20,000 nucleotides of DNA from a virus: IMG/VR virus record IMGVR_UViG_3300048784_000182, positions 1 to 20,000 of that record; one strand, 5' to 3'. Shown in pieces: positions 3,727 to 18,580 of the stretch; positions within the stretch are counted from its first letter, which is position 1, and each line of letters opens with the position of its first letter. Both the position numbers and the translations under genes were made by a program. The notes under the pieces are model-generated. The model was not told the DNA's origin. It worked only from the letters and a program-made list of their open reading frames with translations, and searched no databases.

Positions 3727-3734
3727 AAAAATGA

Positions 3735-3925: not shown

Positions 3926-3931
3926 ATTATA
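3926..3931 (-). promoter_or_regulatory. Extended -10 promoter for RNA1 and the leftward block
   Basis: TATAAT preceded by TGG gives an extended -10 (TGnTATAAT). No convincing -35 is visible. Six bases separate it from the first base of the RNA1 closing stem. It faces away from, and lies only eight bases from, the -10 of the SF2 helicase gene on the other strand, so the two promoters may compete. Confidence 0.65.
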
Positions 3932-3938
3932 CCATGAG

Positions 3939-3944
3939 TAGAAT
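3939..3944 (+). promoter_or_regulatory. -10 element for leaderless SF2 helicase mRNA
   Basis: TAGAAT followed by six bases and then the ATG at 3951. A partial -35 (CTGACC, 3915-3920, spacer 18) is possible. No Shine-Dalgarno lies between, so the mRNA probably starts at the A of the start codon. Confidence 0.5.
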
Positions 3945-3950
3945 CTCCAC

Positions 3951-5342
3951 ATGTTGAGCCACATAGCGATTTATAACGACCGCCTCATCATCACAGATCC
4001 CTCGCAAGAGATGCGCAAATTCATCCATAGCGAGCTTACGTACACAGATAAGTCAAAGCAGTATCAACTTAGACGCATGGCTAAGAACATGTGGCAGCGA
4101 AACTCTCCCGCTTATAAGCAACTTCAAAGTCAAGTCAATGGTACACTGTATGAAGATGTTGCGCCAAATCAGATGGCCGTTTCATCCTGCTTTGTCGAAT
4201 TACTAAAGGGTAAGTTTGACTCTATTCCTGTAGATTTAAGAAAAGACACCGGTAAGAAGGTTTCTCTTCCTTGGGTTAAGAAGCCTTATGACCTGAGAGA
4301 TTACCAAGAAGAAGCAGTGTCGCTAATGCTAAGTAATCCAAGGGGACTTATTAACTTAGCTACTGGGTTAGGTAAGACTCTTCTCGCGACACATTTCGTT
4401 CAGCGATACAAGAGACGCGCGTTGATCGTGTGTCCATCAGAATCAGTAGCGAAGCAGTTTTACGAGCAGTTTGTAAACTGCTTTGGAAAGAACAAGGTGG
4501 GTTTCTATGGAGGCGGAAAGAAGAACATTAGCGAGATTACAGTTGGTATCGCTGCTTCTATCACTAAAAATATTACCGCCTTCCAACAAGCAGACCTTGG
4601 TGTGGTTATTTTTGATGAGACACATCACACTCCGGCCACTACCTTCTTTGATGTCAGTCAGGGTCTTTCTAAGACAGGCAAGATCTTCGGATTAACTGCC
4701 ACCGATTATCGCTCAGATGGTAAAGACGTAATGATCACCGCTGGCTGTGGACCAGTCTTAATCCGTCGCGATATTAAGTGGGGCGTCGACAACGGCTGGC
4801 TTGCTGAACCATACTTTTTTGTGAGATGCGTAAATACTTCTGGCAGGGATTATAAAGATGACAAAACGCGGTCATATAAAGAACATGTTTTGCGTAGCAA
4901 AGAAATGAAGGACCAGATATTCGACGATGCACAAAAAATGATGCAGGCTGGGAAATCTGTCCTAATCCTCGTAGATGAAGTAGCCCATGGAGAAGAACTC
5001 AGTAAGCTATTGGGAATTCCATTTGCCACAGGATTGGACAAGAAGTCACAAGACTATGTCGATCAACTTAACGCTGGAACAATACCTGGTTTAGTGGGAA
5101 CTGATGGTAAAATATCTGAAGGAACTGATACAAAAAATGTAGATGTTCTGATATTAGCTAACTTTGTAGCTTCAAAAGGACCAGTAATACAATGTGTAGG
5201 AAGATCACTGAGAAGACAGGGAACCAAGACCAAAGCCATAATTTTGGATTACATTCCGATGGGCTCAACAATGCTAAGTCGGCACGGATTTCAGAGAGTG
5301 GAATACTACAAGGAAATCTCGGACTATGTCAAGGTGATTTGA
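3951..5342 (+). CDS. SF2 DNA helicase, UvsW-like
   Basis: A 463-aa superfamily 2 ATP-dependent helicase. After a 110-residue N-terminal region it shows a Q-like LRDYQEEAV (about 115-123), Walker A LATGLGKT (136-143), Walker B FDETHH (221-226), motif III FGLTATDYR (246-254), and motif VI QCVGRSLRRQ near the C-terminus. The order and spacing fit the UvsW/RecG-like and type III restriction helicase group. In T4-like phages UvsW remodels forks and R-loops; the same role is inferred here. The start is leaderless in appearance (see the -10 at 3939). The stop TGA overlaps the TTG start of the following HNH gene, suggesting coupled translation. Confidence 0.9.
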   Translation: MLSHIAIYNDRLIITDPSQEMRKFIHSELTYTDKSKQYQLRRMAKNMWQRNSPAYKQLQSQVNGTLYEDVAPNQMAVSSCFVELLKGKFDSIPVDLRKDTGKKVSLPWVKKPYDLRDYQEEAVSLMLSNPRGLINLATGLGKTLLATHFVQRYKRRALIVCPSESVAKQFYEQFVNCFGKNKVGFYGGGKKNISEITVGIAASITKNITAFQQADLGVVIFDETHHTPATTFFDVSQGLSKTGKIFGLTATDYRSDGKDVMITAGCGPVLIRRDIKWGVDNGWLAEPYFFVRCVNTSGRDYKDDKTRSYKEHVLRSKEMKDQIFDDAQKMMQAGKSVLILVDEVAHGEELSKLLGIPFATGLDKKSQDYVDQLNAGTIPGLVGTDGKISEGTDTKNVDVLILANFVASKGPVIQCVGRSLRRQGTKTKAIILDYIPMGSTMLSRHGFQRVEYYKEISDYVKVI

Positions 5343-5920
5343 CATGCCAAAATGTTCCATCTAAAAAGGGACTTTGTGAAAAACACTACAGAAGACTGTG
5401 GAGAGCCCTTAACAAAGAGCATAATGAAAAATATTCAAAAGAATATCATCAAAAAATAAGAAAACCAATATTACAAACTAGAAATAAACCAAAAGAGAAA
5501 AATTGTTTACGCTGTAGTAACTTGTTTACTAGAATTGGCTCTAATCAAAAATATTGCAGCAAAACTTGCCAGAATAACATTACACACAAGAAAAAACGTC
5601 AAAATCCAGAATTTAAGCTAATCCACAACATTAGATCGCGTTTAAGAAAAGCACTGAAAGGTAAGTCTAGAGACAAAGGAATCTTGAAACTTTTAGGTTG
5701 TTCAGCGAACGAAGTTAAGTTGCACATTGAATCTCAATTTAAACTAAATATGACTTGGGATAACTATGGATCACTGTGGGAAATAGATCACATACTACCA
5801 TTAGCAAGTTTTGATTTGTCAGATACTAAACAGTTAAAAGAAGCTTGTCATTACACTAATCTTCAACCGCTGTCGAAAGAAGAACACAAAATAAAGTCAA
5901 TCATGGAGAATAAAATATGA
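5339..5920 (+). CDS. HNH endonuclease A, 193 aa, coupled to the SF2 helicase gene
   Basis: The frame is open from 5192, but the sequence before 5339 is a shadow of the helicase. TTG at 5339 follows AGGTG and starts MTCQNVPSKKGLCEKHYRR, a small Cys/His finger often found at the start of phage HNH proteins. A CLRC/CSKTC zinc pair follows at about 55-75. The C-terminal nuclease block is LLGCSANEVKLHIESQF, MTWDNYG, LWEIDHILPL and HYTNLQPL. This block is strongly related to the genes at 13370 and 15592. It overlaps the helicase stop by four bases. It is more AT-rich and Lys/Asn-rich than its neighbours, fitting a mobile homing gene. The TTG start is inferred. Confidence 0.82.
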   Translation: MTCQNVPSKKGLCEKHYRRLWRALNKEHNEKYSKEYHQKIRKPILQTRNKPKEKNCLRCSNLFTRIGSNQKYCSKTCQNNITHKKKRQNPEFKLIHNIRSRLRKALKGKSRDKGILKLLGCSANEVKLHIESQFKLNMTWDNYGSLWEIDHILPLASFDLSDTKQLKEACHYTNLQPLSKEEHKIKSIMENKI

Positions 5921-6138
5921 ATTTCAAGAAGCCGATAGAACAAGTAGCCCAAGATGCTGCCTATGAAGCATTTAACAAGGCCAGTTCAATGATAGGCAAT
6001 ACCGCTTACACTCCTCCTGGTCAGTTGGGACAGAACATCTCAATGGCTATCCAGGAAGGTGTCAAGGCAGCACTTCTCAGCATGATGCAGCAGGTGTACA
6101 CCGATGCTCAGTTTGAGGAAGATATTAAGCTTAGATAA
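5917..6138 (+). CDS. Small hypothetical protein, 73 aa
   Basis: A 73-aa helical, Ala/Gln-rich protein. The ATG overlaps the stop of HNH gene A (ATGA) and has a GGAG site about nine bases upstream. A stretch rich in Met and Leu (VKAALLSMMQQVYTDA, about 49-64) suggests an amphipathic helix and self-association. The last codons lie just before the -10 element of the endolysin gene. No known family is recognised and no signal peptide is visible. Function unknown. Confidence 0.72.
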   Translation: MNFKKPIEQVAQDAAYEAFNKASSMIGNTAYTPPGQLGQNISMAIQEGVKAALLSMMQQVYTDAQFEEDIKLR

Positions 6139-6140
6139 GT

Positions 6141-6146
6141 TATAAT
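6141..6146 (+). promoter_or_regulatory. -10 element for leaderless endolysin mRNA
   Basis: TATAAT, then six bases, then the ATG at 6153. There is no -35 and no usable Shine-Dalgarno, since the GGTGA present abuts the start codon. Confidence 0.55.
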
Positions 6147-6152
6147 TGGTGA

Positions 6153-6602
6153 ATGCAACTCAGCACCAATGGTCTACAGTTTATTAAGTCATTCGAAGGT
6201 TTTAAGTCTAGTCCATACTTAGACTCTGCTAACATACCAACTATTGGCTATGGAACTATTCTTTACCCTAATGGAACTCGCGTCTCAATGACCGACAATC
6301 CTATTACGGAATTGCTAGCTGAACAATTCCTGCTTCATGACATTAGTCAAAAAACAGCAGGCGTAGAGCACGTTGTTGCAGGTTCTGTAAACCAGAATCA
6401 GTTTGATGCACTTGTGAGCTTTGCATATAATTTGGGCTTAGGTTCTCTACGAGGATCCACGCTTTTAAAACTTGTAAACGAGAATCAATTCTCAGATGCA
6501 GCTGATGAATTTCTTAAGTGGAACCACGCCGGCGGACAGGTTGTTGCTGGCCTAACTCGCCGCAGACTTGCTGAACAGCAACTATTTTTAACTCCCGTTT
6601 AA
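6153..6602 (+). CDS. Endolysin, GH24 (T4-type) lysozyme
   Basis: A 149-aa muramidase that cuts the glycan strands of peptidoglycan at lysis. The catalytic triad matches T4 lysozyme in spacing: E15 in FIKSFEGF, D24 in PYLDS and T30 in IPTIGYGT (E-8-D-5-T). The conserved QFDALVSFAYNLG helix and the C-terminal GLTRRRLAEQQLF are also present. No signal peptide or signal-anchor is visible, so export presumably needs a holin; none is evident nearby, although the membrane protein at 12558 is a remote candidate for a lysis role. The gene is single-domain and of normal length for the family. Its own -10 element sits in the end region of the preceding gene. Confidence 0.93.
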   Translation: MQLSTNGLQFIKSFEGFKSSPYLDSANIPTIGYGTILYPNGTRVSMTDNPITELLAEQFLLHDISQKTAGVEHVVAGSVNQNQFDALVSFAYNLGLGSLRGSTLLKLVNENQFSDAADEFLKWNHAGGQVVAGLTRRRLAEQQLFLTPV

Positions 6603-6609
6603 TTCATGG

Positions 6610-6615
6610 TATAAT
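6610..6615 (+). promoter_or_regulatory. Extended -10 promoter for the tRNA-like gene
   Basis: TGG-TATAAT, identical over the extended -10 to the RNA1 promoter on the other strand. The predicted first base (6622) is two bases before the mature tRNA 5' end. A weak TTTAAC lies 17 bases upstream at the -35 position. Confidence 0.6.
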
Positions 6616-6623
6616 CATCTCAA

Positions 6624-6703
6624 CGGGCGGTAGCTCAGACGTGAGAGCACTGGGGCGTAAAAAACTCCGGAGGTCGGTGGTTCGTTACCATCCCGCCCGA
6701 CCA
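6624..6703 (+). tRNA. tRNA-like gene with an enlarged anticodon loop, identity unclear
   Basis: The acceptor stem is seven perfect pairs (6624-6630 with 6693-6699), followed by A and an encoded CCA. The D-arm is GCTC/GAGC (6633-6636, 6645-6648) with an eight-base loop lacking the usual GG. The T-arm is GGTGG/CCATC with loop TTCGTTA, where the normally conserved A58 is T. The variable loop is AGGTC. The anticodon arm is odd: stem CTGGG (6650-6654) with TCCGG (6666-6670) leaves an 11-base loop, or nine bases if one more G-C pair forms, instead of seven. No anticodon can be assigned safely. It may be a decayed tRNA, a frameshift suppressor type, or one that needs internal processing. Almost no 5' leader is predicted. 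Confidence 0.65.
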
Positions 6704-6806
6704 TTTTAAAGAAAGGTAAATATGCTGTAGGTTTCCAAGCCACCCTAAACTCGTAGTGAATGCCCAACGGATTTCCATTCTGTAACATTTAACTAGGAGT
6801 ATAAAC

Positions 6807-7364
6807 ATGAAAGAACAACTTAGAGCACTTAAACTCAACTTAAAAGAAATCGCTAAAGAAATCAAGAACCAAAAGAAGATCCGTAAGCTTCACCATCCTC
6901 ATCACGACAAGTACAAGGGTGACTACCATGTCCTCTTACTTAGATCTGAATTCAGGCACAAGCACATTGCCTACTGTCTAGCGAGAGGTCGCGCCATCGA
7001 GAAGATCGACAGCGGCAAGCCAGACATGGAGCGCGTTGAATGGATCTTAAAGACGATGCAGCCAGAATCCAAAGAGAAGCTGTATGTCGTCGTTAACGAG
7101 ACGCTCACCCCTTCTCAGCAAGCTGTCCAATCTGCCCACGCAGTAGCAGAATTCTTGAGAAAGAATCCCCACACTATGTGGTCCAACGGGTACCTAATTC
7201 TGCTTAAGGATAAGCCGGGTTACGGCGGAAACATGAGACCCTATCTGTATAGCAATATGGAATATGCAGAATTTATCGAGCCAGATCTCGACAACAAAGT
7301 AACTGCGTACGCATGCTTCGGTCAACATGTAGAGAAACAGATGAAGGATAGAAAATTAGTATAA
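6807..7364 (+). CDS. Peptidyl-tRNA hydrolase 2 (Pth2)-like protein with a basic N-terminal extension
   Basis: 185 aa. The C-terminal half begins KLYVVVNETLTPSQQAVQSA and continues HAVAEFLRKNP, the opening strand, Gln-rich turn and helix typical of the Pth2 fold (compare VVR..L..GQ.A.Q..HA in the family). Pth2 enzymes free tRNA from stalled peptidyl-tRNA. The first 60 residues are strongly basic and His-rich (KEIKNQKKIRKLHHPHHDKY) and may bind RNA. The ATG at 6807 has a good AGGAG site eight bases upstream. The gene sits between the two tRNA genes and ends as the RNA2 promoter begins, so an RNA-related job is plausible. Family assignment rests on the motif pattern only; active-site residues were not verified. 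Confidence 0.62.
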   Translation: MKEQLRALKLNLKEIAKEIKNQKKIRKLHHPHHDKYKGDYHVLLLRSEFRHKHIAYCLARGRAIEKIDSGKPDMERVEWILKTMQPESKEKLYVVVNETLTPSQQAVQSAHAVAEFLRKNPHTMWSNGYLILLKDKPGYGGNMRPYLYSNMEYAEFIEPDLDNKVTAYACFGQHVEKQMKDRKLV

Positions 7365-7365
7365 T
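7360..7365 (+). promoter_or_regulatory. -10 promoter for RNA2 and the amber tRNA
   Basis: AG-TATAAT overlapping the stop codon of the Pth2-like gene. The predicted first base, after a six-base gap, is 7372, the first base of the RNA2 closing stem. No -35 is visible. Confidence 0.6.
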
Positions 7366-7371
7366 GATCTC

Positions 7372-7524
7372 GTGCGGCATCTCGGATAGACGAGAAAACC
7401 GTTGGGAATGACCTAAATAAAGACGCTAAACAGCCCGGGGCTTTTCTAGAAGTGCCTTTCATAATACCGGGGATAGGCGGAGACACACCTCCAAGGTCAG
7501 TGAGACTCGAAAACTCACCCGCAC
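7372..7524 (+). ncRNA. RNA2: predicted structured RNA with tRNA-like outline, unknown family
   Basis: About 153 nt with no supported ORF, lying between a -10 element and the amber tRNA. GTGCGG (7372-7377) pairs with CCGCAC (7519-7524). Two bases later comes a hairpin TCTCG/CGAGA (7380-7384, 7391-7395) with a GATAGA loop, as in RNA1. Inside, TGACCT (7409-7414) pairs with AGGTCA (7494-7499), CCCGG (7434-7438) with CCGGG (7467-7471), and GGAG (7479-7482) with CTCC (7489-7492). A 3' hairpin GTGAG/CTCAC (7500-7504, 7514-7518) with TCGAAA in its loop abuts the closing stem without a gap, like a T-arm. I see no tmRNA-style tag reading frame. It is probably co-transcribed with the tRNA. Confidence 0.58.
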
Positions 7525-7537
7525 ACAATTTTAATAT

Positions 7538-7614
7538 GCTTCCGTAGTTCAGAGGCCTAGAACGGGGATCTCTAAAATCCTGCGGCATCGGTTCGAATCC
7601 GATCGGAAGCACCA
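7538..7614 (+). tRNA. tRNA-Sup(CTA), amber-codon-reading tRNA
   Basis: A well-formed cloverleaf. Acceptor GCTTCCG/CGGAAGC (7538-7544, 7604-7610), discriminator A and encoded CCA (7612-7614). D-arm GTTC/GAAC with loop AGAGGCCTA. Anticodon stem GGGAT/ATCCT (7565-7569, 7577-7581) and the seven-base loop CTCTAAA, giving anticodon CTA (7572-7574), which reads UAG. T-arm ATCGG/CCGAT with the canonical loop TTCGAAT. The variable loop is short (five bases), so it is not a Leu, Ser or bacterial Tyr type; the charged amino acid cannot be told. TAG still ends several genes in this window, so the tRNA would act as a suppressor on them. Confidence 0.9.
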
Positions 7615-7617
7615 ATC

Positions 7618-8361
7618 TTAAGTAACCCACCAATCACTGTATGGATTTTTTGGATGTGGCTGATAATAGATCTCAGCCACACCTCCCATCCCGCTTGGGA
7701 AATCTTCGTACAACCTATTCTTCCAAATCCTAAAAGCAAACCAGTTGAGGATTGAAACTTTACTAACGTTATTTCCTAGATGCCACGCAAGTCTTCGAGG
7801 ATCTGCTTGATTAGTAGGAGTTCCAAGGCAACTGAACAGCAAGACCATCATGCTATATGTATACAGTGGGAATGCAGCGAGTCTTATCATATAATGCATG
7901 GGATTTTTCATGCTAGGAAATGCGGCAGAAATCATCGCGCACACTAGCTGGGGTTGTCTGAACATGAAGGAATCGCCTGTCCACATCCCAGGATCTTCAT
8001 TGTTGAGGCATCCAAAATTCTTGATCATGCACTTTAGAAATATCCTCGGGATAGAGGTAATTCCTAACTCCATGCAGCCGTTCAACGTACCATAGTAATC
8101 GTCTACCTGTTCTTGCCCGTCATTTTGGCCAACTGGAACTCGGCACAATGCCCCTTTGGGGGTAATGCACGAGTTGATTCGGGCAGCAAAATCGTCAATG
8201 TCATTTTGAGTTGCATACCCATGCTTCTTTAGCATGATGAAGTATTCAGATGTGTACATAGGACCGTTATCAGAACCACCGACAGTGCCGGGGGAAACAG
8301 GCTCTGGGGCTAAAAGGTTATTACCGTCGATATAAGGTTGGAAATCGCTTTTAATAGTCAT
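7618..8361 (-). CDS. Hypothetical protein, 247 aa
   Basis: I do not recognise this protein. It is rich in aromatic residues, Cys and Met, with notable stretches DNGPMYTSEYFIML (31-44), VDDYYGTLNGC (86-96) and a hydrophobic segment about 160-180 (LAAFPLYTYSMMVLLFSCLG) that could be one membrane or buried helix. The C-terminal end is Trp/Pro-rich. It stands alone on the minus strand between the amber tRNA, three bases past its end, and the divergent 8374-8613 region. The ATG at 8359-8361 has no Shine-Dalgarno but a TAAAAT exactly six bases upstream. Enzyme-like in composition, but no catalytic motif can be named. Confidence 0.85.
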   Translation of the reverse strand: MTIKSDFQPYIDGNNLLAPEPVSPGTVGGSDNGPMYTSEYFIMLKKHGYATQNDIDDFAARINSCITPKGALCRVPVGQNDGQEQVDDYYGTLNGCMELGITSIPRIFLKCMIKNFGCLNNEDPGMWTGDSFMFRQPQLVCAMISAAFPSMKNPMHYMIRLAAFPLYTYSMMVLLFSCLGTPTNQADPRRLAWHLGNNVSKVSILNWFAFRIWKNRLYEDFPSGMGGVAEIYYQPHPKNPYSDWWVT

Positions 8362-8367
8362 ATGACT

Positions 8368-8373
8368 ATTTTA
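8368..8373 (-). promoter_or_regulatory. Extended -10 for the leaderless 247-aa gene
   Basis: TGT-TAAAAT read leftward, then AGTCAT, then the ATG ending at 8361. No -35 at 17-18 bases. Confidence 0.5.
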
Positions 8374-8433
8374 ACATAGTTTTATAGTTGCCCTCTTTAG
8401 CTCCTAAGTTATAAGGTCCTCTCCGTCCCCTAC

Positions 8434-8473
8434 TTCGCTCTTCGAAGAAGAGCGAACAGCGCGCTTGCGCGCT
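8434..8473. repeat. Two tandem perfect hairpins in the divergent intergenic region
   Basis: TTCGCTCTT (8434-8442) pairs with AAGAGCGAA (8448-8456) around a five-base loop, nine perfect pairs. Immediately after, AGCGCG (8458-8463) pairs with CGCGCT (8468-8473) around CTTG. Neither has a T-run, so simple terminators are unlikely. They sit between divergent genes, where a terminator would not be expected. Possible roles are part of a small RNA or a protein-binding site. No gene is visible in 8374-8493. Confidence 0.7.
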
Positions 8474-8493
8474 TAAGCGATTGTTAGAATGGA

Positions 8494-8499
8494 TAGAAT
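8494..8499 (+). promoter_or_regulatory. Possible -10 element for RNA3
   Basis: TAGAAT, the same hexamer as at the SF2 helicase start, five to six bases before the RNA3 closing stem. A second TAGAAT lies ten bases upstream. Weak evidence. Confidence 0.35.
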
Positions 8500-8504
8500 A
8501 GATA

Positions 8505-8585
8505 GGTTGGGGTAAGTACTCTCTTATGATACCCGCGAACAATGCACTTTTAACTCAGTACCCAAAATATTTTTACCCCGCAACC
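8505..8585 (+). ncRNA. RNA3: possible small structured RNA upstream of dUTPase
   Basis: About 80 nt. GGTTG plus GGGTAA at 8505 onward can pair with TTACCC and CAACC ending at 8585, eleven pairs with a two-base bulge. GTACT just inside pairs with AGTAC. The GGGTA segment also has other partners (TACCC near 8529 and 8559), so alternative folds are possible. It ends 17 bases before the dUTPase -10 element. No ORF of note. It resembles RNA1 and RNA2 only in having a closing stem at the predicted first base. Confidence 0.35.
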
Positions 8586-8601
8586 ATGAAAAATTACTCA
8601 G

Positions 8602-8607
8602 TATAAA
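8602..8607 (+). promoter_or_regulatory. -10 element for leaderless dUTPase mRNA
   Basis: TATAAA, within TATAAATA (which equals the T4 late promoter consensus), followed at six bases by the ATG at 8614. No Shine-Dalgarno and no -35. Confidence 0.5.
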
Positions 8608-8613
8608 TAACCC

Positions 8614-9129
8614 ATGAACAACGATAATAGGGATGAAGTACTGGCTAAGGTGAAAGAGAACTATTTTAAGATTGAAGTTGAAGTGCTCAACGGCGGCAAG
8701 TTGCCGCACAAGGTCAATCGTACTGATGCCGGTTTTGATCTCTACGCTACAGAGGATGTCACCATCTTCCCTGGACAGGTCCAGAAGCATCCCCTCAACA
8801 TCAGGATGAAGCTTCCCGCAGGTACTTGGGGTAATATCACCTCCAAGTCTGGTCTTGGTGCTAAGGGTCTTCTAGTGTATGCTGGCGTGATCGACCAAGA
8901 GTATCGCGGCATTCCGCATGTGGTCATGTCTAATATTTGGGTGATGCAGTCCATCGACCCAGAAGGCTTCCCACTGATGCGGGTTGAGCCAATCATAGTT
9001 AAAAAAGGTGAGAAGCTCGCTCAACTCATCATGAATCCATATTCGCCAGAGTATTACATTGAGCATGTTGAAACTGTTGATACGAATACTGTGCGCGGAG
9101 CTGGTGGCTTTGGAAGTACGGGCAAATGA
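8614..9129 (+). CDS. dut: dUTPase (dUTP diphosphatase)
   Basis: 171 aa, trimeric dUTPase family, converting dUTP to dUMP and pyrophosphate to keep uracil out of DNA and supply dTMP synthesis. All five motifs are in order: DAGFDLYA (motif 1, about 38-45), SKSGLGAKG (2), AGVIDQEYRG (3, with the catalytic Asp), KGEKLAQLIM (4) and the C-terminal RGAGGFGSTG (5). Motif 2 has SKSG where PRSG is usual. A short insertion between motifs 3 and 4 (MQSIDPEGFPLMR) makes it longer than the common 150 aa. About 20 extra residues precede the domain. The stop overlaps the next start as ATGA, so the two are co-translated. Confidence 0.94.
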   Translation: MNNDNRDEVLAKVKENYFKIEVEVLNGGKLPHKVNRTDAGFDLYATEDVTIFPGQVQKHPLNIRMKLPAGTWGNITSKSGLGAKGLLVYAGVIDQEYRGIPHVVMSNIWVMQSIDPEGFPLMRVEPIIVKKGEKLAQLIMNPYSPEYYIEHVETVDTNTVRGAGGFGSTGK

Positions 9130-9491
9130 ATCACGTTCATACGCCGATCACAACCTTGGCATCAGGGACTTCAATTTCTGTCCCTATTTATATCACTAGG
9201 GACCCTGATAACATTGTTCTTATTAAGTCATTCCATGTGAGTTCAACTGGAAGATTTAAGTTTACATTGCTATCTGGATCTACAGTGATCATGATTCTCT
9301 ATACGTCTGATACGACTTTTAATGTGGAATCTCACTTTGATCGAGAAGTGAACCCAATGGATAACCTCCGTATCTTTGTTCAAAATTTGGATCGTATATC
9401 AGTTGACGCTCACGTATTTCTTAACTATGAAGACACTTATCAGAAGTATAGTAATCAGTTTCATAGTTCCCTAGAGAACCATCTTACATAA
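9126..9491 (+). CDS. Hypothetical beta-rich protein, 121 aa
   Basis: Unrecognised. The ATG overlaps the dUTPase stop (ATGA). The sequence alternates hydrophobic and polar residues through most of its length, with many Thr, Ser, Val and Ile, typical of a small beta-sandwich; examples are FKFTLLSGSTVIMILYT (about 44-60) and LRIFVQNLDRISVDAHVFL (about 81-99). The C-terminal 20 residues are polar and Tyr/Gln/Asn-rich. A small virion or ligand-binding domain is possible, but nothing specific supports it. The gene is followed by the -10 element at 9505. Confidence 0.78.
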   Translation: MNHVHTPITTLASGTSISVPIYITRDPDNIVLIKSFHVSSTGRFKFTLLSGSTVIMILYTSDTTFNVESHFDREVNPMDNLRIFVQNLDRISVDAHVFLNYEDTYQKYSNQFHSSLENHLT

Positions 9492-9504
9492 TGTTCTAAC
9501 TGAG

Positions 9505-9510
9505 TATAAT
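9505..9510 (+). promoter_or_regulatory. -10 promoter for the methyltransferase gene
   Basis: AG-TATAAT. An in-frame ATG at 9509 overlaps the hexamer, so it cannot be in the transcript. Predicted transcription starts near 9517, just before a GGGAG ribosome site. A palindrome GCTCC-CACG-GGAGC (9511-9524) overlaps the predicted start and could be an operator. Confidence 0.5.
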
Positions 9511-9529
9511 GCTCCCACGGGAGCACACC

Positions 9530-10673: not shown

Positions 10674-10821
10674 TTTAGACGCCAGTCTTCCAGAAGACTC
10701 TAGATTTGTTGTTGTATCCTATATAGCTGTAACCGATGCAGGACAAAAGTATCTGGAGACGAATCACACTAGTCTATTCTTTCCAGAAGGCGGAATGCCC
10801 AAAAAAGTTGGAGATCAATAA
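10651..10821 (+). CDS. Small hypothetical protein, 56 aa
   Basis: A short gene in the +1 frame, beginning MVPLSVISLDASLPEDS and continuing RFVVVSYIAVTDAGQKYLET, with a hydrophobic beta core (FVVVSYIAV) and an ending GGMPKKVGDQ. A G-rich stretch (GGGGG) lies two bases before the ATG. It fills the only gap between the 148-aa gene and GroEL, and its TAA shares a base with the GroEL ATG (TAATG), the typical arrangement for translational coupling. The residue composition is protein-like, while the other frames here are Cys/Arg-rich or stopped, which supports this frame. Function unknown. Confidence 0.7.
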   Translation: MVPLSVISLDASLPEDSRFVVVSYIAVTDAGQKYLETNHTSLFFPEGGMPKKVGDQ

Positions 10822-12542: not shown

Positions 12543-12545
12543 TGA

Positions 12546-12551
12546 TATGAT
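12546..12551 (+). promoter_or_regulatory. Extended -10 for the leaderless membrane-protein gene
   Basis: TGA-TATGAT followed at six bases by the ATG at 12558. No Shine-Dalgarno lies between the GroEL stop and this start. Confidence 0.5.
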
Positions 12552-12557
12552 TGAATA

Positions 12558-13016
12558 ATGACTACCAAACAATTATTAATCATAGGCAGTATCGCGCTAG
12601 CAACCGCTTTTGCTTTTGGCAGATGGAGTGCGCCTGAAAAGGTGAAGATCCAAACTGTAGAAGTTGAGAAGAAGGTTGAAGATAAAAAGATCGCTGCCGA
12701 CGACCATAAGCTCACAACCATTACAGAGACTGATAAACCAGATGGTACAAAGGTGAAGACTACGGTGATTGCAGATGATCGCACATCTAAATCTGACGAT
12801 AAGACAGTAGATAAATCTACCAAGACTGAAACTAAAGAGATTGAGAAAAGTTCTAGCAAGCTTACGATTTCTCTCCTAGGAGCTGTTAACGTCACCGATC
12901 CCGGTCTTCCTACATATGGTATAGCTATCACGAGACCAATTTTAGGTCCAATTACTGTAGGCGCATTTGGCTTTCAAAATGGACTGGTTGGGGTGAGCAT
13001 AGGTCTTACCTTCTAA
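12558..13016 (+). CDS. Membrane-anchored phage protein, 152 aa
   Basis: One N-terminal hydrophobic segment (residues 5-21, LLIIGSIALATAFAFG) preceded by a lysine acts as a signal anchor. A long Lys/Asp/Thr-rich linker follows (25-103), with heptad-like VEVEKKVEDKK and DKSTKTETKEIEK stretches, probably extended or coiled outside the cytoplasm. The C-terminal 50 residues form a glycine-rich beta region (YGIAITRPILGPITVGAFGF and VGVSIGLTF). Proteins with this layout are common in phages but of unknown function; an envelope or lysis-related role (spanin-like) is possible, though no lipobox is present. The start appears leaderless. Confidence 0.82.
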   Translation: MTTKQLLIIGSIALATAFAFGRWSAPEKVKIQTVEVEKKVEDKKIAADDHKLTTITETDKPDGTKVKTTVIADDRTSKSDDKTVDKSTKTETKEIEKSSSKLTISLLGAVNVTDPGLPTYGIAITRPILGPITVGAFGFQNGLVGVSIGLTF

Positions 13017-13017
13017 T

Positions 13018-13365
13018 ATGCCCAAATATCGATTCTTTTGCGAAAATTGTCAGGTTGAAATAGAGCGCTATGCTTCTCCAAAAGAGGAGAGGACAGAGTG
13101 CGGCATGTGCATGTTGCCAATGCAGCGTCAATTTCCTGGCAGTGGTTCTCAGGCCGTTCGAGAGGTTGTAGATACGTTCACTAACGTAAGAACTGCTCCC
13201 GATGAAAAGGCTCAAAATAAGGCTCGCAAGACTGAGCATTTTTGGGAAGTCGAAGTTCCTAGACTAATTCAGACATATTCACTGCAAACGTGTCTTGAAG
13301 AGGCGTGGTTAATTTACAATGATAAAGGTGAACTAGTGATCAATAAATCACCTTCTAAGCGATAA
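13018..13365 (+). CDS. FmdB-like zinc-ribbon protein, 115 aa
   Basis: The N-terminus MPKYRFFCENC with C8-x2-C11 and C28-x2-C31 (CGMC) forms a zinc ribbon of the FmdB type (compare MPxYxYxCxxC), about 40 residues. The rest is charged and helical, with a Trp-rich FWEVEVPRLIQTY and a Lys-rich C-terminus, of unknown role. The ATG follows the preceding stop by one base with no clear Shine-Dalgarno or -10, so coupling to the upstream gene is likely. FmdB-type ribbons are often suspected nucleic-acid or protein adaptors; in phages their job is unknown. Confidence 0.8.
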   Translation: MPKYRFFCENCQVEIERYASPKEERTECGMCMLPMQRQFPGSGSQAVREVVDTFTNVRTAPDEKAQNKARKTEHFWEVEVPRLIQTYSLQTCLEEAWLIYNDKGELVINKSPSKR

Positions 13366-13369
13366 GAAT

Positions 13370-13921
13370 ATGGCATGTAACAAAGAAAATAAGAAAAGAT
13401 TAAACAGGGAGTGGCGAAGAACTCATAGTGATGCTATTAATGAACGCCAACGACAACAGTATCGCGACAATCACAGCGAAGCGCTTACATATCAACGTGA
13501 CTATCGATCAAAAACTAAAGAAAAACAAAGCGAATATAACAAATCGGCATACCAAAAACGTAAACTAAGATACCTTAGTGATGTTAATTTTAAGTTGGCA
13601 GCTAGTTTACGCAATAGGTTGGGTCGTGCAATAAAGGGCAATTATAAATCTGGTTCTGCGGTTAATGACTTAGGTTGTTCTGTACAAGAGTTTAAGTTCT
13701 ATATAGAATCTAAGTTTCAACTAGGAATGACTTGGGATAACTGGTCTAAAGATGGTTGGCACATTGATCACATAAAGCCATTGTGTAAATTTGATTTAAG
13801 TAATTCAGATCAACTAAAGCAGGCTTGCCATTTCACCAATCTTCAGCCACTGTGGGTAGAAGATCATAAGCGAAAGACTGCTGGTGAAATCTATGAAAAT
13901 ACTTTCAATAAAGATAAGTAA
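13370..13921 (+). CDS. HNH endonuclease B, 183 aa, upstream of Rad50
   Basis: A homing-type HNH nuclease. The N-terminal 65 residues are extremely basic and polar (RREW-, RQRQQYR- and KTKEKQSEYN-like segments) and lack the Cys finger of the sister genes. The C-terminal block DLGCSVQEFKFYIESKF, LGMTWDN, GWHIDHIKPL, HFTNLQPL and a final DHKRK is closely related to the genes at 5339 and 15592. It overlaps the Rad50 start by 29 bases. The start has no Shine-Dalgarno. Its position, together with gene C on the other side, brackets the Rad50 gene. Confidence 0.85.
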   Translation: MACNKENKKRLNREWRRTHSDAINERQRQQYRDNHSEALTYQRDYRSKTKEKQSEYNKSAYQKRKLRYLSDVNFKLAASLRNRLGRAIKGNYKSGSAVNDLGCSVQEFKFYIESKFQLGMTWDNWSKDGWHIDHIKPLCKFDLSNSDQLKQACHFTNLQPLWVEDHKRKTAGEIYENTFNKDK

Positions 13922-15629
13922 TATTTTAAGCATTGAAGATGCTTATGTTGAGTTTGATGACTCGGGGCTTATGCTCGTCCAGGGGTGGAACTATGATGTC
14001 GATAGAGCAAATGGAGCAGGAAAGACAGCAATATTCAACGCTATCACATTCGCTTTATATGATAAACTTCCTAGAAAAATTACTGCAACGGAAATTCTAC
14101 GCAGGGGATCTAAAAATGGATCGGTTGCGTTGTGCGTGGAAGTTGGCACAGAACAGTATATCGTTAAGAGATCACGCCCTAAAGGCGTCGTTTTCTTCAA
14201 AGGCACCGAATCTTTAACAGTAACACAAGAAGGTTGGGAGAACATTTTAAAGTTGAACTATGAACAGTTCATTCTATCTATGTATGCGGCCCAAGGCGTA
14301 ACGAAGAGATTTCTATCCATTAACGACGGTGACAAGAAGGAGTTCCTTCTTCAGCTCCTCAACTTGCAGGAGTTCTCTTCTTGTAAACTCATTGCGGACC
14401 AAAAAGTCAAAGAATTGGAATCATCCTGCGCGTCCATTCAATCTAAACTAGATTCCATAGACTCTAAGATAGACGCCTACAGCGAGTCATTGTGTGCTGA
14501 TGATGTTATTACTTATCACATTTCTCTAGCCAACCAAAACATTGTAGATCTCACTACTGTTATTAGTAAGGCTCAAGTTGTTACGAGACCAGACTTGAGT
14601 AAGTATCAAAAGCTTGAAGAAGATATCTTAGTAAAGAAAACTGAGTTCACAAGAGCAAAGACTAGAAGAGAGATGCTTCATGAACAGTACAGAAGAATAC
14701 AAGGTAAGATTCAGCCATTCAATGCAGCTAGATCTTGCTCGGAATGTGGATCTGCGCTTGATACGTCTGCTGCGGAAGCTCAACATAGCAAATTATTGGT
14801 TTCCCTTAAGGGCGAACTTGCTGGGATCAAACTCGAGATTGACCATTGTGATAACATACTCCTTAAAGAAAAAGGGGTAAATGAACTTCAAGTAAAACTC
14901 CGTGACAAGAAGAGAGAAGAATCTAAGGATTATGAGATAGCAACTGCTACTGTTGCTGACTTACAAGCTAAGATCAACTTGAAGCAGTTGGAGCTCAAAC
15001 AACTGAACGTAAAACTACAAAACAACTTAGAATTAAACAATAAGATCAAAGACCTATCTAACCTACGTGCACAAACTGTTAACAATAGGGCTACCATATC
15101 ACGAGAGATTGAGCTTTATAAGACCATTTCTGCCATGTATTCGCCCACTGGTGCTCAGGCCTATATCCTTGATTCTGTTATAGAATCCTTCAATGAGAAG
15201 GTAACTGAATATGTAAATCTTTTGTGGTCAAATCTTACCTACGAACTTATGTCCTATAAGGAAAATGTTAAGGGTGATGTTACCGCAAAGTTTTCTGAAA
15301 CACTGGTCATGGATGGGAAACCCATCTCTATTGGCAGTTTGTCTGGTGGAGAATTTAGGGCTTTATCTCTATGTGTAGATTTTGCACTTGTAGATGTCAT
15401 GGAACGTCAATTTGGTATATCGATGTCCCCGATCATCCTAGATGAACAGACAGAGGGATTAGATGCCTCGGGTAAGGAACTTATAATGGAACTACTTTCT
15501 GAGTTGTCTAGTAGTAGAATGATTATAGTGATTGATCATGCAAGTGAGGTGGCCGCATCTTTTAGCAAAGTACTAAAGATAGAGAAGAGAAATGGAATCT
15601 CAAATATTATTAAACCAGAAGATATGTAG
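13893..15629 (+). CDS. Rad50/SbcC/T4 gp46-type recombination ATPase
   Basis: 578 aa, close in length to T4 gp46 (about 560). ABC-type ATPase halves flank a coiled coil: Walker A NGAGKT (40-45), a zinc-hook CSEC (C282, C285) at the coil tip, signature LSGGE (483-487), Walker B IILDEQ with D517/E518, and the H-loop VIDHASE. With a gp47/Mre11 nuclease such proteins process DNA ends for recombination-dependent replication; no nuclease gene is in the window. The frame opens at GTG 13884, but GGTGA five to six bases before ATG 13893 makes that the better start. Its two ends are overlapped by HNH genes B and C. TAG stop with TAA two codons later. Confidence 0.94.
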   Translation: MKILSIKISNILSIEDAYVEFDDSGLMLVQGWNYDVDRANGAGKTAIFNAITFALYDKLPRKITATEILRRGSKNGSVALCVEVGTEQYIVKRSRPKGVVFFKGTESLTVTQEGWENILKLNYEQFILSMYAAQGVTKRFLSINDGDKKEFLLQLLNLQEFSSCKLIADQKVKELESSCASIQSKLDSIDSKIDAYSESLCADDVITYHISLANQNIVDLTTVISKAQVVTRPDLSKYQKLEEDILVKKTEFTRAKTRREMLHEQYRRIQGKIQPFNAARSCSECGSALDTSAAEAQHSKLLVSLKGELAGIKLEIDHCDNILLKEKGVNELQVKLRDKKREESKDYEIATATVADLQAKINLKQLELKQLNVKLQNNLELNNKIKDLSNLRAQTVNNRATISREIELYKTISAMYSPTGAQAYILDSVIESFNEKVTEYVNLLWSNLTYELMSYKENVKGDVTAKFSETLVMDGKPISIGSLSGGEFRALSLCVDFALVDVMERQFGISMSPIILDEQTEGLDASGKELIMELLSELSSSRMIIVIDHASEVAASFSKVLKIEKRNGISNIIKPEDM

Positions 15630-16272
15630 TTCTTGTAACTCTTTATGTTTATTGGACTTTTTTGATAAAGATAAGTGTCAAAAAGACGGTCACAAGAGTC
15701 AATGTAAGGCATGTAAAAGCAAATACTCAAAGAGTCATAATGCTGATAGCAAGGTTAATGAAAGAAATAAATCACTTAAGAAGATCTATTGCTTAAACAA
15801 TTTAGAAAAAGAACAACAATATAGAATTACGCATAAGGTACAAAGTCGTAAGGCCCAGAAAGATTGGTACCTTAGGAACAAGGGCTTGCTAAAAGAAAAG
15901 CGCCGCATCTACGCGAAAATAAGAAGTAAACATGATATTAACTTCAAATTATGCAAAAACCTGCGCACTAGGTTATATTGTGCTTTGAAAGATAACTTGA
16001 AAACAGGTTCTGCGGTTGAAGATTTAGGTTGTTCTATCGCGAAGTTAAAGATACATCTTCAACTTAAGTTTACTAGACGCCCTAAGAATAGTGCCCAAAT
16101 AATGACTTGGAATAACTATGAGTATAGTGGTTGGCACATAGATCATGTCAGGCCATTGTCTAGTTTTGATCTTTCTGATCCTGCGCAACTTAAAGAGGCT
16201 TGTCATTACACTAACTTACAGCCTCTTTGGTCAGAAGAAAACTTGCGTAAGTCTGATTCTGTGCTACAATAG
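15592..16272 (+). CDS. HNH endonuclease C, 226 aa, overlapping the end of Rad50
   Basis: Starts at ATG 15592 inside the last 38 bases of Rad50, with AGAAGAG just upstream. An N-terminal zinc finger ICSSCNSLCLLDFF then QCKACKSKYSK (C12, C15 and a later C-x2-C pair) is typical of phage HNH genes, as in RSQCKACR-type proteins. A basic middle region is followed by DLGCSIAKLKIHL, MTWNNYEYSG, WHIDHVRPLSSFDL and HYTNLQPLW. A small insertion (RRPKNSAQI) separates two conserved blocks compared with genes A and B. The TAG stop codon overlaps the -10 element of the next gene. Likely a homing nuclease. Confidence 0.87.
   Translation: MESQILLNQKICSSCNSLCLLDFFDKDKCQKDGHKSQCKACKSKYSKSHNADSKVNERNKSLKKIYCLNNLEKEQQYRITHKVQSRKAQKDWYLRNKGLLKEKRRIYAKIRSKHDINFKLCKNLRTRLYCALKDNLKTGSAVEDLGCSIAKLKIHLQLKFTRRPKNSAQIMTWNNYEYSGWHIDHVRPLSSFDLSDPAQLKEACHYTNLQPLWSEENLRKSDSVLQ
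16265..16270 (+). promoter_or_regulatory. Extended -10 for the leaderless 102-aa gene
   Basis: TGC-TACAAT at the end of HNH gene C, six bases before the ATG at 16277. No Shine-Dalgarno. Confidence 0.45.
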
Positions 16273-16276
16273 ACTT

Positions 16277-16585
16277 ATGCAGGACCTCATTGAAAAAATT
16301 GAAGAGCTAAAGAAGGCCTTAGGGGCCATGAAGCCAAAAGAAAATACCCTAGTTCCTGCTCTCAGCTTGCCAGCAGTTAAACCTCTTTCTATATCAGCTT
16401 CGTCTGGTGGCTCGGTGAAACCACCTAAGTTACCAGGCGTTGCTGCAGCTTCTGGCAAAGATCCAAAGAAGATGGCCGAACAACTTAAGAATCCTAGACC
16501 CACTAAGCCAAAGGTAGAAGTACTTAAGACGGATAAGAACGGTCAGTGGTCGCTGAATAAGTTCGGCGAAAACAATTCAGTATAA
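16277..16585 (+). CDS. Hypothetical Pro/Lys-rich protein, 102 aa
   Basis: The frame is open from 16145, but the part before 16277 is a shadow of HNH gene C; ATG 16277 follows a TACAAT at six bases and is chosen as start. A short N-terminal helix (MQDLIEKIEELKKALGAM) is followed by a long low-complexity region rich in Pro, Lys, Ser and Ala (for example SLPAVKPLSISASSGGSVKP) with no obvious fold, ending DKNGQWSLNKFG. It looks intrinsically disordered. Possibly a scaffold or linker protein; the function is unknown. Confidence 0.72.
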   Translation: MQDLIEKIEELKKALGAMKPKENTLVPALSLPAVKPLSISASSGGSVKPPKLPGVAAASGKDPKKMAEQLKNPRPTKPKVEVLKTDKNGQWSLNKFGENNSV

Positions 16586-16586
16586 T
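16581..16586 (+). promoter_or_regulatory. -10 element for the leaderless GTG-started HNH gene
   Basis: AG-TATAAT overlapping the stop of the previous gene, six bases before the GTG at 16593. No Shine-Dalgarno. Confidence 0.5.
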
Positions 16587-16592
16587 CTAATA

Positions 16593-17147
16593 GTGAAAAA
16601 ACGTCCCCCATACAATCAGGAAGTTGCAATCCGCGGTGCTCTGCGCCGCGCCTTTTCTCGTTCTCCTTTGGTTAGAGAAGTTCTTGAAGAATCTCGCCAG
16701 GAATTTCCCCGCTACAAAAAAGATGGCACTAGACATAAGAGAAACTGGGTTAAGAGACAATGCCAGGTTTGCAATGAATGGGTTCCTAGTGGCCATATAA
16801 AAGTTGACCATATAGATCCTGTTATCTCTGTGTTAGAGGGCAAACAAGATTGGAACACGTTTGTTGACCGCCTCTGGTGCAATACCTTAGGAAAAGCCAA
16901 TCTCCAGCGCATCTGTGATCCTTGTCATAACATTAAGACTCAGGGTGAAAGAATAGCGCGCCTTACTAAGCAATACACAGAAGAACTAGATGAGATAGAG
17001 TCACGCTTTAGTAGCATGCTCCCTATCTTGATAAAACCAACAATTAAGTTATTGAACAAGTATATTGCCAAGAAGAAGACTAAGGGTCTTGAACTGATAG
17101 TACAAAGAGCTCAGAGATTAAAAGATCGATTGAAACAAGGAGCATGA
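16593..17147 (+). CDS. HNH endonuclease, separate subfamily, 184 aa
   Basis: Begins at GTG 16593, leaderless in appearance. A basic N-terminal region (RRAFSRSPLVREV) is followed by the nuclease core: CQVC (57-60), HIKVDHIDPVI with D72-H73, the N103 segment NLQRICDPCHNIKT with the second zinc pair C108/C111 and H112-N113. A C-terminal helical tail of about 65 residues is Lys/Leu-rich. This core resembles the stand-alone HNH proteins common in phage genomes and is not the same subfamily as genes A, B and C; it lacks their DLGCS and YTNLQPL blocks. It could be a homing enzyme or take part in DNA processing. TGA stop, adjacent to the next ATG. Confidence 0.87.
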   Translation: MKKRPPYNQEVAIRGALRRAFSRSPLVREVLEESRQEFPRYKKDGTRHKRNWVKRQCQVCNEWVPSGHIKVDHIDPVISVLEGKQDWNTFVDRLWCNTLGKANLQRICDPCHNIKTQGERIARLTKQYTEELDEIESRFSSMLPILIKPTIKLLNKYIAKKKTKGLELIVQRAQRLKDRLKQGA

Positions 17148-17438
17148 ATGAGTGATGTTAAGAAGGTTCTTTCAAAGAGTTTCGTAGACAACCACGAGAA
17201 CGTCACTGAGGACGTGGCTGCTGACCTAATCGTCAAGGCCGAAATGAAGGTTAAGGAAATCAAGGAAGAGCGTGCAGCCGATGGTAAGTTGGAGCAGGCT
17301 AGACAGATTGTTAAGGATCTTAACGGCGCTTACACCAGTGCTATCAAGTACGAGCAGGCCAAGATTGCTTTCCTCCTCGAGAAGATCGAAGAGATCCAGA
17401 GCGGTGCCGTTAATCCTAGCTCAGGCGCCAATTCCTGA
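17148..17438 (+). CDS. Small helical (coiled-coil) protein, 96 aa
   Basis: Directly follows the HNH stop, with an AGGAG site five bases before the ATG. Almost all helical and charged; heptad-like spacing of hydrophobic residues runs from about 25 to 85 (LIVKAEMKVKEIKEER, ARQIVKDLNGAYTSA, AFLLEKIEEI), suggesting a coiled coil or helical bundle, ending in a Ser/Asn/Gly-rich tail. Codons look more evenly GC-rich than in the HNH gene upstream, like the following virion-type gene. A scaffold, chaperone or small structural role would fit, but no family is recognised. Confidence 0.8.
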   Translation: MSDVKKVLSKSFVDNHENVTEDVAADLIVKAEMKVKEIKEERAADGKLEQARQIVKDLNGAYTSAIKYEQAKIAFLLEKIEEIQSGAVNPSSGANS

Positions 17439-17444
17439 TATAAT
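17439..17444 (+). promoter_or_regulatory. Extended -10 promoter for the virion-type gene
   Basis: TGA-TATAAT. Unlike most others here, the start codon is 28 bases further on and is served by a strong AAGGAG site at 17462-17467. AAGGTC (17445-17450) and GACCTT (17467-17472) form an inverted repeat around it, a possible operator. Confidence 0.55.
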
Positions 17445-17472
17445 AAGGTCAACTTAGTTTTAAGGAGACCTT

Positions 17473-18339
17473 ATGTCACTTCGCGACTCTTATTTTAATG
17501 GCCCTAACGGAATTCAACAGCAGATGGATGCTGCTTTTGCTAATGGTATCGCCTACGTAGGTGTAGGAGCTAATGATGTTTCTACCCTATCACTAGGCGA
17601 TAGAAATGGCTCCAACCTGGCTGCCGGCATCGGTAGCCCTGGACTATACTTTACTTATGCTACTCCATCAGCTAACTATGTGATGTGGATGTATGTCAAT
17701 GGTGAAGTTGCTCCAAGTGTGGCTGGTACTCTAGTTCAGGTCACTATCTTGAGTGGTGATAATTCAACTGCAGTAGCTTTGAAGATTGCTGCAGCCATGA
17801 ATGCCATTGTCAACTCTCCTTTTTCTGATGTTGCAAGTGCCTCTGTTGTTTCTATGTCGAATAGTGTTTCGGGCGTAGTTATTCTTCCTGTGTCTGCAGG
17901 AACTCTTGGTGGAACTGCTGTAGTAGCTCAAGCTCAAGCCGGTGTTGCTCCTACTGGACAATACTCTGCTCTTCAGACTGCTCTACAGCAAGCTGCAGCT
18001 GGCGGAAAGCAAGATTTCAGGCTTGTTACTATGGGCACTGGTAACATGAACACTTCTATCTTAAGAGCTTGCAATGGCAACAATCTAGCATTGAGGGCTT
18101 TCTTCGCCGGAATTTATCAGGCACTCGCAAGTCAGCAAATCTACGATTATCAGGTTAGACTGCAACTCGATATCAGTACGTCATCTTCAACTAATGTTAT
18201 TTTTAACTTTAGTTTTGGGCGCCGTTTTATGAATGCACCAGTTAACTTAGATTCTTTGACTTGTCCTCCATCTGGTAGTAATGGAACTGGTGGTGGTTCA
18301 AGTTGTGGCTGTGGCGATAACTGGTCTCGTGGCTATTAG
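17473..18339 (+). CDS. Putative virion structural protein, 288 aa
   Basis: Glycine-, alanine- and serine-rich, almost without charged residues, typical of phage capsid or tail surface proteins. The segment YVMWMYVNGEVAPSVAGTLV then VTILSGDNSTAVALKIAAAM (about 70-115) matches a module seen repeatedly in phage structural proteins (a Tyr/Trp strand, Pro-x2-Gly turn, then a hydrophobic helix). The C-terminus has a folded RRFMNAPVNLDSLTCPPSG strand followed by a GTGGGSSCGCGDNW tail with three Cys. It has its own promoter, the best ribosome site in the window and a strong terminator, so it is probably highly expressed. Which virion part it forms cannot be told. TAG stop. Confidence 0.78.
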   Translation: MSLRDSYFNGPNGIQQQMDAAFANGIAYVGVGANDVSTLSLGDRNGSNLAAGIGSPGLYFTYATPSANYVMWMYVNGEVAPSVAGTLVQVTILSGDNSTAVALKIAAAMNAIVNSPFSDVASASVVSMSNSVSGVVILPVSAGTLGGTAVVAQAQAGVAPTGQYSALQTALQQAAAGGKQDFRLVTMGTGNMNTSILRACNGNNLALRAFFAGIYQALASQQIYDYQVRLQLDISTSSSTNVIFNFSFGRRFMNAPVNLDSLTCPPSGSNGTGGGSSCGCGDNWSRGY

Positions 18340-18353
18340 CACTCAAAGAGTAT

Positions 18354-18391
18354 AAGCGTACCTCTATAAAAGTTCGCTTTGGTCTCAGAGG
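18354..18391 (+). other. Possible H-type pseudoknot downstream of a TAG stop
   Basis: AAGCG (18354-18358) can pair with CGCTT (18375-18379), and CCTCT (18361-18365) with AGAGG (18387-18391), in crossing order. It begins 14 bases after the TAG of the virion-type gene. Readthrough would add only nine codons before TAA, so a role in 3' end structure is as likely as recoding. Confidence 0.4.
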
Positions 18392-18407
18392 CAACGCAGG
18401 GATTGAG

Positions 18408-18436
18408 AAGGGCACTACGGTGCCCTTTTCTTTTTG
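18408..18436 (+). terminator. Rho-independent terminator
   Basis: AAGGGCAC and GTGCCCTT form eight perfect pairs around a TACG tetraloop, followed by TTCTTTTT. It ends the virion-type transcript and lies just before the -10 element of the next gene. Confidence 0.93.
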
Positions 18437-18442
18437 TATAAT
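18437..18442 (+). promoter_or_regulatory. -10 promoter for the polymerase transcript
   Basis: TATAAT directly after the terminator T-run. Six bases later is an ATG opening a 43-codon frame, and the polymerase ATG is at 18523. No -35 is possible without overlapping the terminator stem. Confidence 0.5.
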
Positions 18443-18448
18443 CTGTGC

Positions 18449-18580
18449 ATGAATTGTATTGGTTGCAATATATTGATTGAGCTGGGAAAAAGATCATTAC
18501 AAGAAAACGCAACAGGAGTTTTATGGCTCGCTTTAAAGAAGTTTGTCAACTGCACAATCATAGCAAGTATAGTCTTTTAG
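18449..18580 (+). CDS. Possible small leaderless ORF, 43 aa
   Basis: Begins MNCIGCNILIELGKRSLQEN, with one CxxC pair, at the same six-base distance from TATAAT as the other leaderless genes, and ends in TAG inside the polymerase gene, overlapping it by 58 bases in another frame. The first half looks protein-like; the part over the polymerase gene is probably constrained by it. It could be a small zinc-binding peptide, a leader that tunes polymerase expression, or nothing. Confidence 0.35.
   Translation: MNCIGCNILIELGKRSLQENATGVLWLALKKFVNCTIIASIVF

Follow-up and report, generated by a model that had tools for sequence, protein, structure and literature searches.

A -10 box six bases before the start codon marks putative leaderless genes in a clade of uncultured phages

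Introduction

In the 20,000-base virus record IMGVR_UViG_3300048784_000182 of IMG/VR, whose full length is called the window here, TATAAT-like -10 boxes lie six bases before start codons on both strands, and genes with a box at this distance are very probably leaderless genes, judging from the window and its relatives. The window's own phage is known only as this fragment and whole-genome tests were done on relatives as stand-ins for its genome. None of the phage records searched was similar to the window at the DNA level; close relatives, with GroEL proteins 82-90% identical, were found among uncultured viral contigs. Two of the relatives, G001 and G002, are 177 kb long, and 49 DnaE loci were found among the relatives. 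Leaderless expression from a -10 box adjacent to the start codon is in itself already known, though it has been little studied; the novelty lies in the clade, in the demonstration across whole genomes and in the evolutionary series.

We infer from the sequence where the RNA begins, that translation proceeds leaderless and that the host polymerase is used. The host RNA polymerase with a housekeeping sigma-70-type factor would recognise an extended -10 box (T-G-G-TATAAT, no -35 element), and RNA synthesis would begin at the seventh base past the box, where the start codon has its A (or G). Such an mRNA would begin with 5'-AUG (or GUG) and ribosomes would initiate on that end without a Shine-Dalgarno (SD) sequence; ordinary ribosome sites are found at downstream operon genes and at some other promoters.

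Enrichment of the box at a distance of six bases

A scan of the whole phage for the hexamer had been proposed in the initial annotation; run on the relatives, it revealed enrichment at six bases. When boxes matching at least five of the six consensus bases were scored by their distance to called starts, a box at distance six was found for 13 of the 181 called genes in G001 (about 1 expected, P = 2e-10) and for 15 of the 214 in G002 (about 1 expected, P = 2e-13). The arrangement had been described as the main promoter form, which is fair for the window but not for the whole phage, as the leaderless-type box serves only about 7-8% of called genes in the long relatives. Other boxes precede tRNAs, structured RNAs or genes that have an ordinary short leader and a ribosome site.

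A test free of gene calls, in which ATG was counted at each distance downstream of every TATAAT, showed a peak at distance six with 14 occurrences in G001 (0-6 at the other distances), 11 in G002, eight in G003 and seven in G007. Across 12 records of the clade TATAAT-N6-ATG occurs 99 times compared with 21.5 per control distance (10-19), or 92 times compared with 19.9 when G016, which appears to duplicate part of G017, is left out. The 176-kb relative G018, whose DnaE is 65% identical, carries 27 of these sites. In 11 other phages, including T4, SPO1, phiKZ, P-SSM2, K and Mx1, no excess was found (41 vs 43.9).

In the window, the eight hexamers listed in the initial annotation were all confirmed in the sequence, each six bases from its start codon (Table 1). 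Seven of them fit the label TANNNT that had been given to all eight, and TATAAA at 8602 does not do so literally. The binomial probability of at least seven TANNNT at one fixed distance among the 22-30 gene starts of the window is 6e-7 to 6e-6, and 2e-5 to 2e-4 when 31 distances are allowed for. Anywhere in the window, TANNNT-N6-ATG is not enriched (18 seen, 14.3 expected), and TANNNT at any place was for that reason dropped as a measure. TATAAT-N6-ATG is present three times with 0.25 expected, and boxes with at most one mismatch to TATAAT nine times with 2.6 expected. The signal of the window resides in consensus-like boxes and at gene starts. Chance together with the reader's selection, by which eight sites would have been picked from a degenerate motif, could account for the missing enrichment of TANNNT and for the site at 12558, which is not conserved (see below). 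However, independent relatives peak at the same distance with P values down to 2e-13, and conserved box columns stand against a variable spacer, by which chance is refuted as the source of the whole pattern; its probability is negligible.

Anatomy of the element and the DnaE promoter

The logo of 39 aligned sites reads T(-15) G(-14) G(-13) TATAAT N5 Y(-1) ATG, with TG at -15/-14 and G at -13 in 30 of the 39, and no -35 consensus was seen in it. By this pattern the element is an extended -10 box without -35. SD-like bases were found at one of 13 box genes in G001 and one of 15 in G002, and together with the logo this agrees with the initial annotation, which had described the sites as having mostly neither SD nor -35. 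The low counts are partly due to the box physically filling the SD place, and for this reason the anti-association of box and SD was left out of the evidence. A pyrimidine followed by a purine at the start is the usual bacterial initiator, and a pyrimidine is found at -1 in 30 of 40 box genes compared with 284 of 586 other ATG starts (P = 0.0016).

For the DnaE start, identity across 20 relatives is 0.97 in the box columns, compared with about 0.35 for positions -6 to -2 and about 0.31 for -45 to -31, and position -1 is mostly C. In the window a terminator-like hairpin with a T-run abuts this box, and in the relatives a hairpin with a T-run, mostly differing in sequence, ends about one base before it. 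Upstream RNA should therefore stop before the gene, which would leave about 13 bases for the start of a new transcript.

Two structured RNAs share the box and its spacing. For RNA A 43 pairs were predicted, 21 of them with two-sided changes; an Rfam search gave no match, and the model of this RNA (R1) matched an unseeded homolog in G013 (E = 4.7e-31). The homologs in L004, L003, L002, L001, L014 and G013 start at most two bases from the seventh base after TATAAT, TATAAA or TATAAG, and no homologs were found in G014-G020, Mx1 and T4. RNA B has a minimum free energy of -72 kcal/mol and the closing stem GTCAGCG/CGCTGAC, and in the window, L049, L002 and L039 its first base is the seventh past the box. 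Its closing stem (GTCAGC/GCTGAC) is constant in relatives with a variable interior, and the RNA is absent from L001, L007, L008 and L032; it has the look of a module or an insertion. RNA genes lack start codons, so that a spacing of six bases would reflect the start of transcription, and in coding genes the base in question falls on the first letter, A or G, of the start codon.

Initiation without SD is known for unstructured, A/U-rich leaders. The hexamer, which sits where an SD would, could accordingly be read not as a promoter but as an unstructured, S1- or A/U-dependent ribosome landing site within a longer leader. This is very improbable in view of the extended -10 bases TGG upstream of the box, the terminator directly preceding the DnaE box, the shared box and spacing of tRNA and non-coding RNA genes, which are not translated, and the identical boxes that elsewhere come with normal leaders and ribosome sites.

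tRNAs with a CUA (amber) anticodon are found throughout the clade (window 7538-7614; L040:2173-2248, L049:7144-7299, L059:3839-3916, L079:8331-8486). Recoding of TAG, which these tRNAs could suggest, was rejected: TAG is a normal stop, and opening TAG lengthens frames no more than opening TGA.

Orthologous starts

In orthologs of the helicase starting at 3951, TAGAAT-N6 is kept in L002, L039, L001 (GTG), L049, L007, L008 and L032 with a differing spacer. The divergent pair of boxes at 3926-3944, 7-9 bp apart on opposite strands, is kept in the same seven relatives, and by this arrangement the region appears to be a compact two-way promoter. Orthologs of the endolysin (6153) mostly have a box at 6 or 7 nt, and L004 has GAGGGA instead. 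For the gene at 8361, L002, L005, L003 and L012 carry TACTAT/TACAAT/TAGTAT-N6-ATG. About 12 orthologs of the gene at 16277 have box-N6-ATG, and often the TGA stop of the upstream SbcC gene overlaps the box and doubles as TG of the extended element. Box-N6-GTG is found in orthologs of the gene at 16593 in L102, L003, L004, L005 and L006, and L007, L091 and L106 have the box 7-8 nt from the start. The box position is kept while spacers differ for helicase (five genomes), DnaE (four), portal protein (four) and thymidylate kinase (four), and in the long relatives the box form also precedes the portal protein, thymidylate kinase, helicase, DnaE, a tail-tube initiator-like protein and a VTC-domain protein. 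Altogether, six or seven of the eight sites in the window are supported as gene starts.

Genes were also found to change between the leaderless form and a form with a ribosome site. The dUTPase has TATAAA-N6-ATG, as at 8614 in the window, in L005, L007, L015 and L078, and in L002, L003 and L012 the box is separated from the ATG by six bases and a CGGAG-containing leader of about 12 nt. Several distant DnaE relatives without a box have ribosome sites in its place, and ribosome sites likewise appear in orthologs that have lost the box or shifted the start. In the window a 74-nt insertion lies at the DnaE start. It leaves a 43-codon open reading frame (ORF; 18449-18580) at the old start and supplies AGGAG (18514-18518), four bases before the DnaE ATG at 18523. 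In every DnaE relative whose box lies six bases upstream, DnaE itself starts at the ATG following the box.

The window encodes a DnaB-like helicase, a primase-like protein, a DNA helicase, an endolysin, a dUTPase, a DNA methyltransferase, a phage GroEL, an SbcC-like nuclease subunit, HNH endonucleases and the start of a DnaE-type DNA polymerase. Three homing-endonuclease-like ORFs (5192-5920, 13370-13921 and 15592-16272) are inserted among conserved genes; the third splits SbcC from the gene at 16277, whose box survived.

Table 1. Features of the window and homologs of structured RNA A.
Position	Strand	Feature	Associated gene or remark
3939..3944	+	-10 box TAGAAT	ATG 3951, DNA helicase 3951-5342 (phrog_16)
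6141..6146	+	-10 box TATAAT	ATG 6153, endolysin 6153-6602 (phrog_7)
8373-8368	-	-10 box TAAAAT	ATG 8361, unknown protein 7618-8361 (minus)
8602..8607	+	-10 box TATAAA	ATG 8614, dUTPase 8614-9129 (phrog_135)
12546..12551	+	TATGAT hexamer (weakest case)	ATG 12558, unknown protein 12558-13016
16265..16270	+	-10 box TACAAT	ATG 16277, unknown protein 16277-16585
16581..16586	+	-10 box TATAAT	GTG 16593, HNH endonuclease 16593-17147 (phrog_1985)
18437..18442	+	-10 box TATAAT, DnaE promoter	ATG 18449
17439..17444	+	-10 box TATAAT (contrast)	ordinary short-leader gene, ATG 17473, ribosome site TAAGGAG
3926..3931	-	divergent -10 box TATAAT	7 bp from the plus-strand helicase box
3727..3919	-	structured RNA B, about 193 nt	leader of minus gene 3361-3726
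6610..6615	+	-10 box TATAAT	before tRNA-like gene 6624-6703
7360..7365	+	-10 box TATAAT	six bases before structured RNA A
7372..7527	+	structured RNA A, 156 nt	before CUA-anticodon tRNA
L002:5876-6030, L003:396-552, L004:7129-7284, L001:5326-5481, L014:5688-5844, L162 (G013:16470-16629)		RNA A homologs	
18408..18435	+	terminator-like hairpin and T-run	ends directly before the DnaE promoter
18449..18522	+	74-nt insertion	window only; absent from every DnaE relative whose start was read

Points against the leaderless reading and alternative explanations

The claim of a leaderless expression system, made in the initial annotation for all eight sites, is strongly supported by the genome-wide enrichment, the evolutionary footprinting, the pyrimidine at -1, the abutting terminator and the two non-coding RNAs, with 12558 and 18449 being weaker as gene starts. 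Several observations weigh against it. The site at 12558 is not conserved, as relatives have no box there and carry AGGA-type ribosome sites. The 74-nt insertion parts the promoter from the DnaE ATG, so that the box at 18437 is probably a real promoter, with 18449 probably not being the start of a conserved gene. The gene calls come from a simple home-made caller. Gaps of 7-8 nt in some orthologs indicate that leaders of 1-2 nt may occur as well, and a leader of 1-3 nt is conceivable. Finally, the searches for phage-encoded sigma factors and polymerase described below would miss highly divergent genes.

The longer gaps, found in the families of 6153 and 16593, lead to a reading with very short leaders, in which the first transcribed base would lie 1-5 bases ahead of the start codon or slightly within it, with the six-base gap being only approximate. 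In the gene-call-free counts, G003 and G005 also peak at distance 7 (count of 7 in G003). The closest relatives, however, peak at exactly 6, the start carries a pyrimidine at -1 and a purine at +1, and the structured RNAs begin at about the seventh base past the box, which makes such leaders unlikely as the general explanation.

The initial annotation had also raised initiation directed by the phage, in which a phage sigma factor or an initiation helper, e.g., a CAU tRNA with a C1:A72 mismatch, would specialise infected cells for leaderless mRNAs. G001 and G002 bear a CAU tRNA with C1:A72, which is typical of initiators, and an extra initiator tRNA was reported to favour leaderless mRNAs (PMC9031893). 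C1:A72 is found in the tRNAs at L044:19578-19656 (minus strand) and L053:7564-7642 (plus strand), and U1:A72 at L067:10075-10153 (minus strand). This initiator-like tRNA was found only in G001, G002 and G004, its anticodon stem lacks the three G-C pairs of initiators, and G018, the record with the most sites, did not yield it. For sigma-70 regions 2 and 4 and RNA polymerase beta-prime no match above threshold was obtained in G001 and G002, where genes too divergent for the Pfam models would escape, and S1, S21 and IF3 likewise gave none above threshold in these two genomes. The distant G005 has one r4-like match above the cut-off. Direction by the phage is improbable on this evidence, and, since sigma-70 regions 2/4 and beta-prime were not detected in G001 and G002, a host polymerase of the sigma-70 type most likely reads the boxes. 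A more far-reaching proposal is that essential genes of the clade (polymerase, helicase, portal, thymidylate kinase) form a leaderless class of their own that would exploit a distinct ribosome state during infection, in some members helped by the initiator-like CAU tRNA, with genes switching between modes over evolution; we regard this as a long shot.

Bacterial genome-bin contigs were scanned for the host with a DnaE alignment and then with a single DnaE sequence, and no relative was found in these scans; Actinobacteria or Deinococcus, which the initial annotation had mentioned for their leaderless genes, are not specifically indicated.

Meaning

The clade allows leaderless starts to be read from sequence and to be traced through evolution. 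DnaE, dUTPase and endolysin take the leaderless form in some relatives and have a leader with a ribosome site in others, which constitutes a natural test of when the two modes interchange. In viral metagenomes, such genes may be given wrong starts by predictors that are tuned to ribosome sites. The host is suggested to accept leaderless AUG mRNAs, and probably GUG mRNAs as well.

Comparison with known systems

Late promoters of the T4 type (TATAAATA) depend on a sigma factor of the phage, and their box sits a leader's length from the start codon. At 6 bp there is no excess in T4 (8 vs 7.1 per distance), in contrast to the clade, and no Sigma70_r2/r4 match was found in G001 and G002, a search in which a divergent gp55-like protein was not sought separately. 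The nearest cultured relative found is Myxococcus phage Mx1 (OR576727; GroEL 33%, helicase 26% identity), which is annotated with GroEL, a recombination endonuclease, DnaE and a helicase, the recombination endonuclease and DnaE being listed near GroEL; an SbcC-like gene is likewise present by annotation. Mx1 resembles the clade in its replication genes but not in its promoter form, as it has no box peak. TATAAT occurs twice in its 170 kb, with 15 expected from a dinucleotide model, and Mx1 is annotated with its own sigma factor, of which no homolog was found in the relatives; this suggests that Mx1 strongly avoids host-like -10 boxes while having a sigma factor of its own.

The cI mRNA of phage lambda is leaderless. 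Leaderless mRNAs have been described for lambda (PMC3160421, PMC4633059) and P2 (PMC4633059), and these share leaderless translation with the clade but are single genes, with no recurrent promoter form for essential genes. Leaderless SigA-like promoters, including a divergent pair, were predicted in cluster O mycobacteriophages such as Corndog (PMC4351075). There the number of promoters is three, whereas in the clade many replication, nucleotide-metabolism and head genes are concerned and evolutionary evidence comes from across the relatives. In mycobacteria a 5'-terminal AUG or GUG suffices for leaderless initiation (PMC4633059), and in E. coli leaderless GUG works poorly (PMC9031893). The conserved GTG at 16593, taken together with the poor use of GUG in E. 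coli, hints that the host may accept leaderless GUG mRNA.

In bacteria, -10 boxes lying about 12 bp ahead of start codons are known from Actinobacteria, Deinococcus-Thermus, Acidobacteria, delta-Proteobacteria and others (Zheng et al., 2011; PMC3160421), and in Deinococcus the gap between box and start is 6-7 bp (Life Sci Alliance 2025; PMC12340547). The sites of the clade are like these -10-adjacent leaderless genes in having the hexamer about 12 bp before the start (a gap of 6-7 bp), enriched over other distances, in lacking a clear -35 and a Shine-Dalgarno sequence, and in being kept among orthologs with a variable spacer. In contrast to them, the bacterial systems were described for cellular genomes and not for a phage clade, the boxes of high-GC hosts are of the degenerate TANNNT type compared with near-perfect TATAAT plus the extended TGG in the clade, and 20-60% of called genes are leaderless in the bacterial systems compared with 7-8% in the clade.

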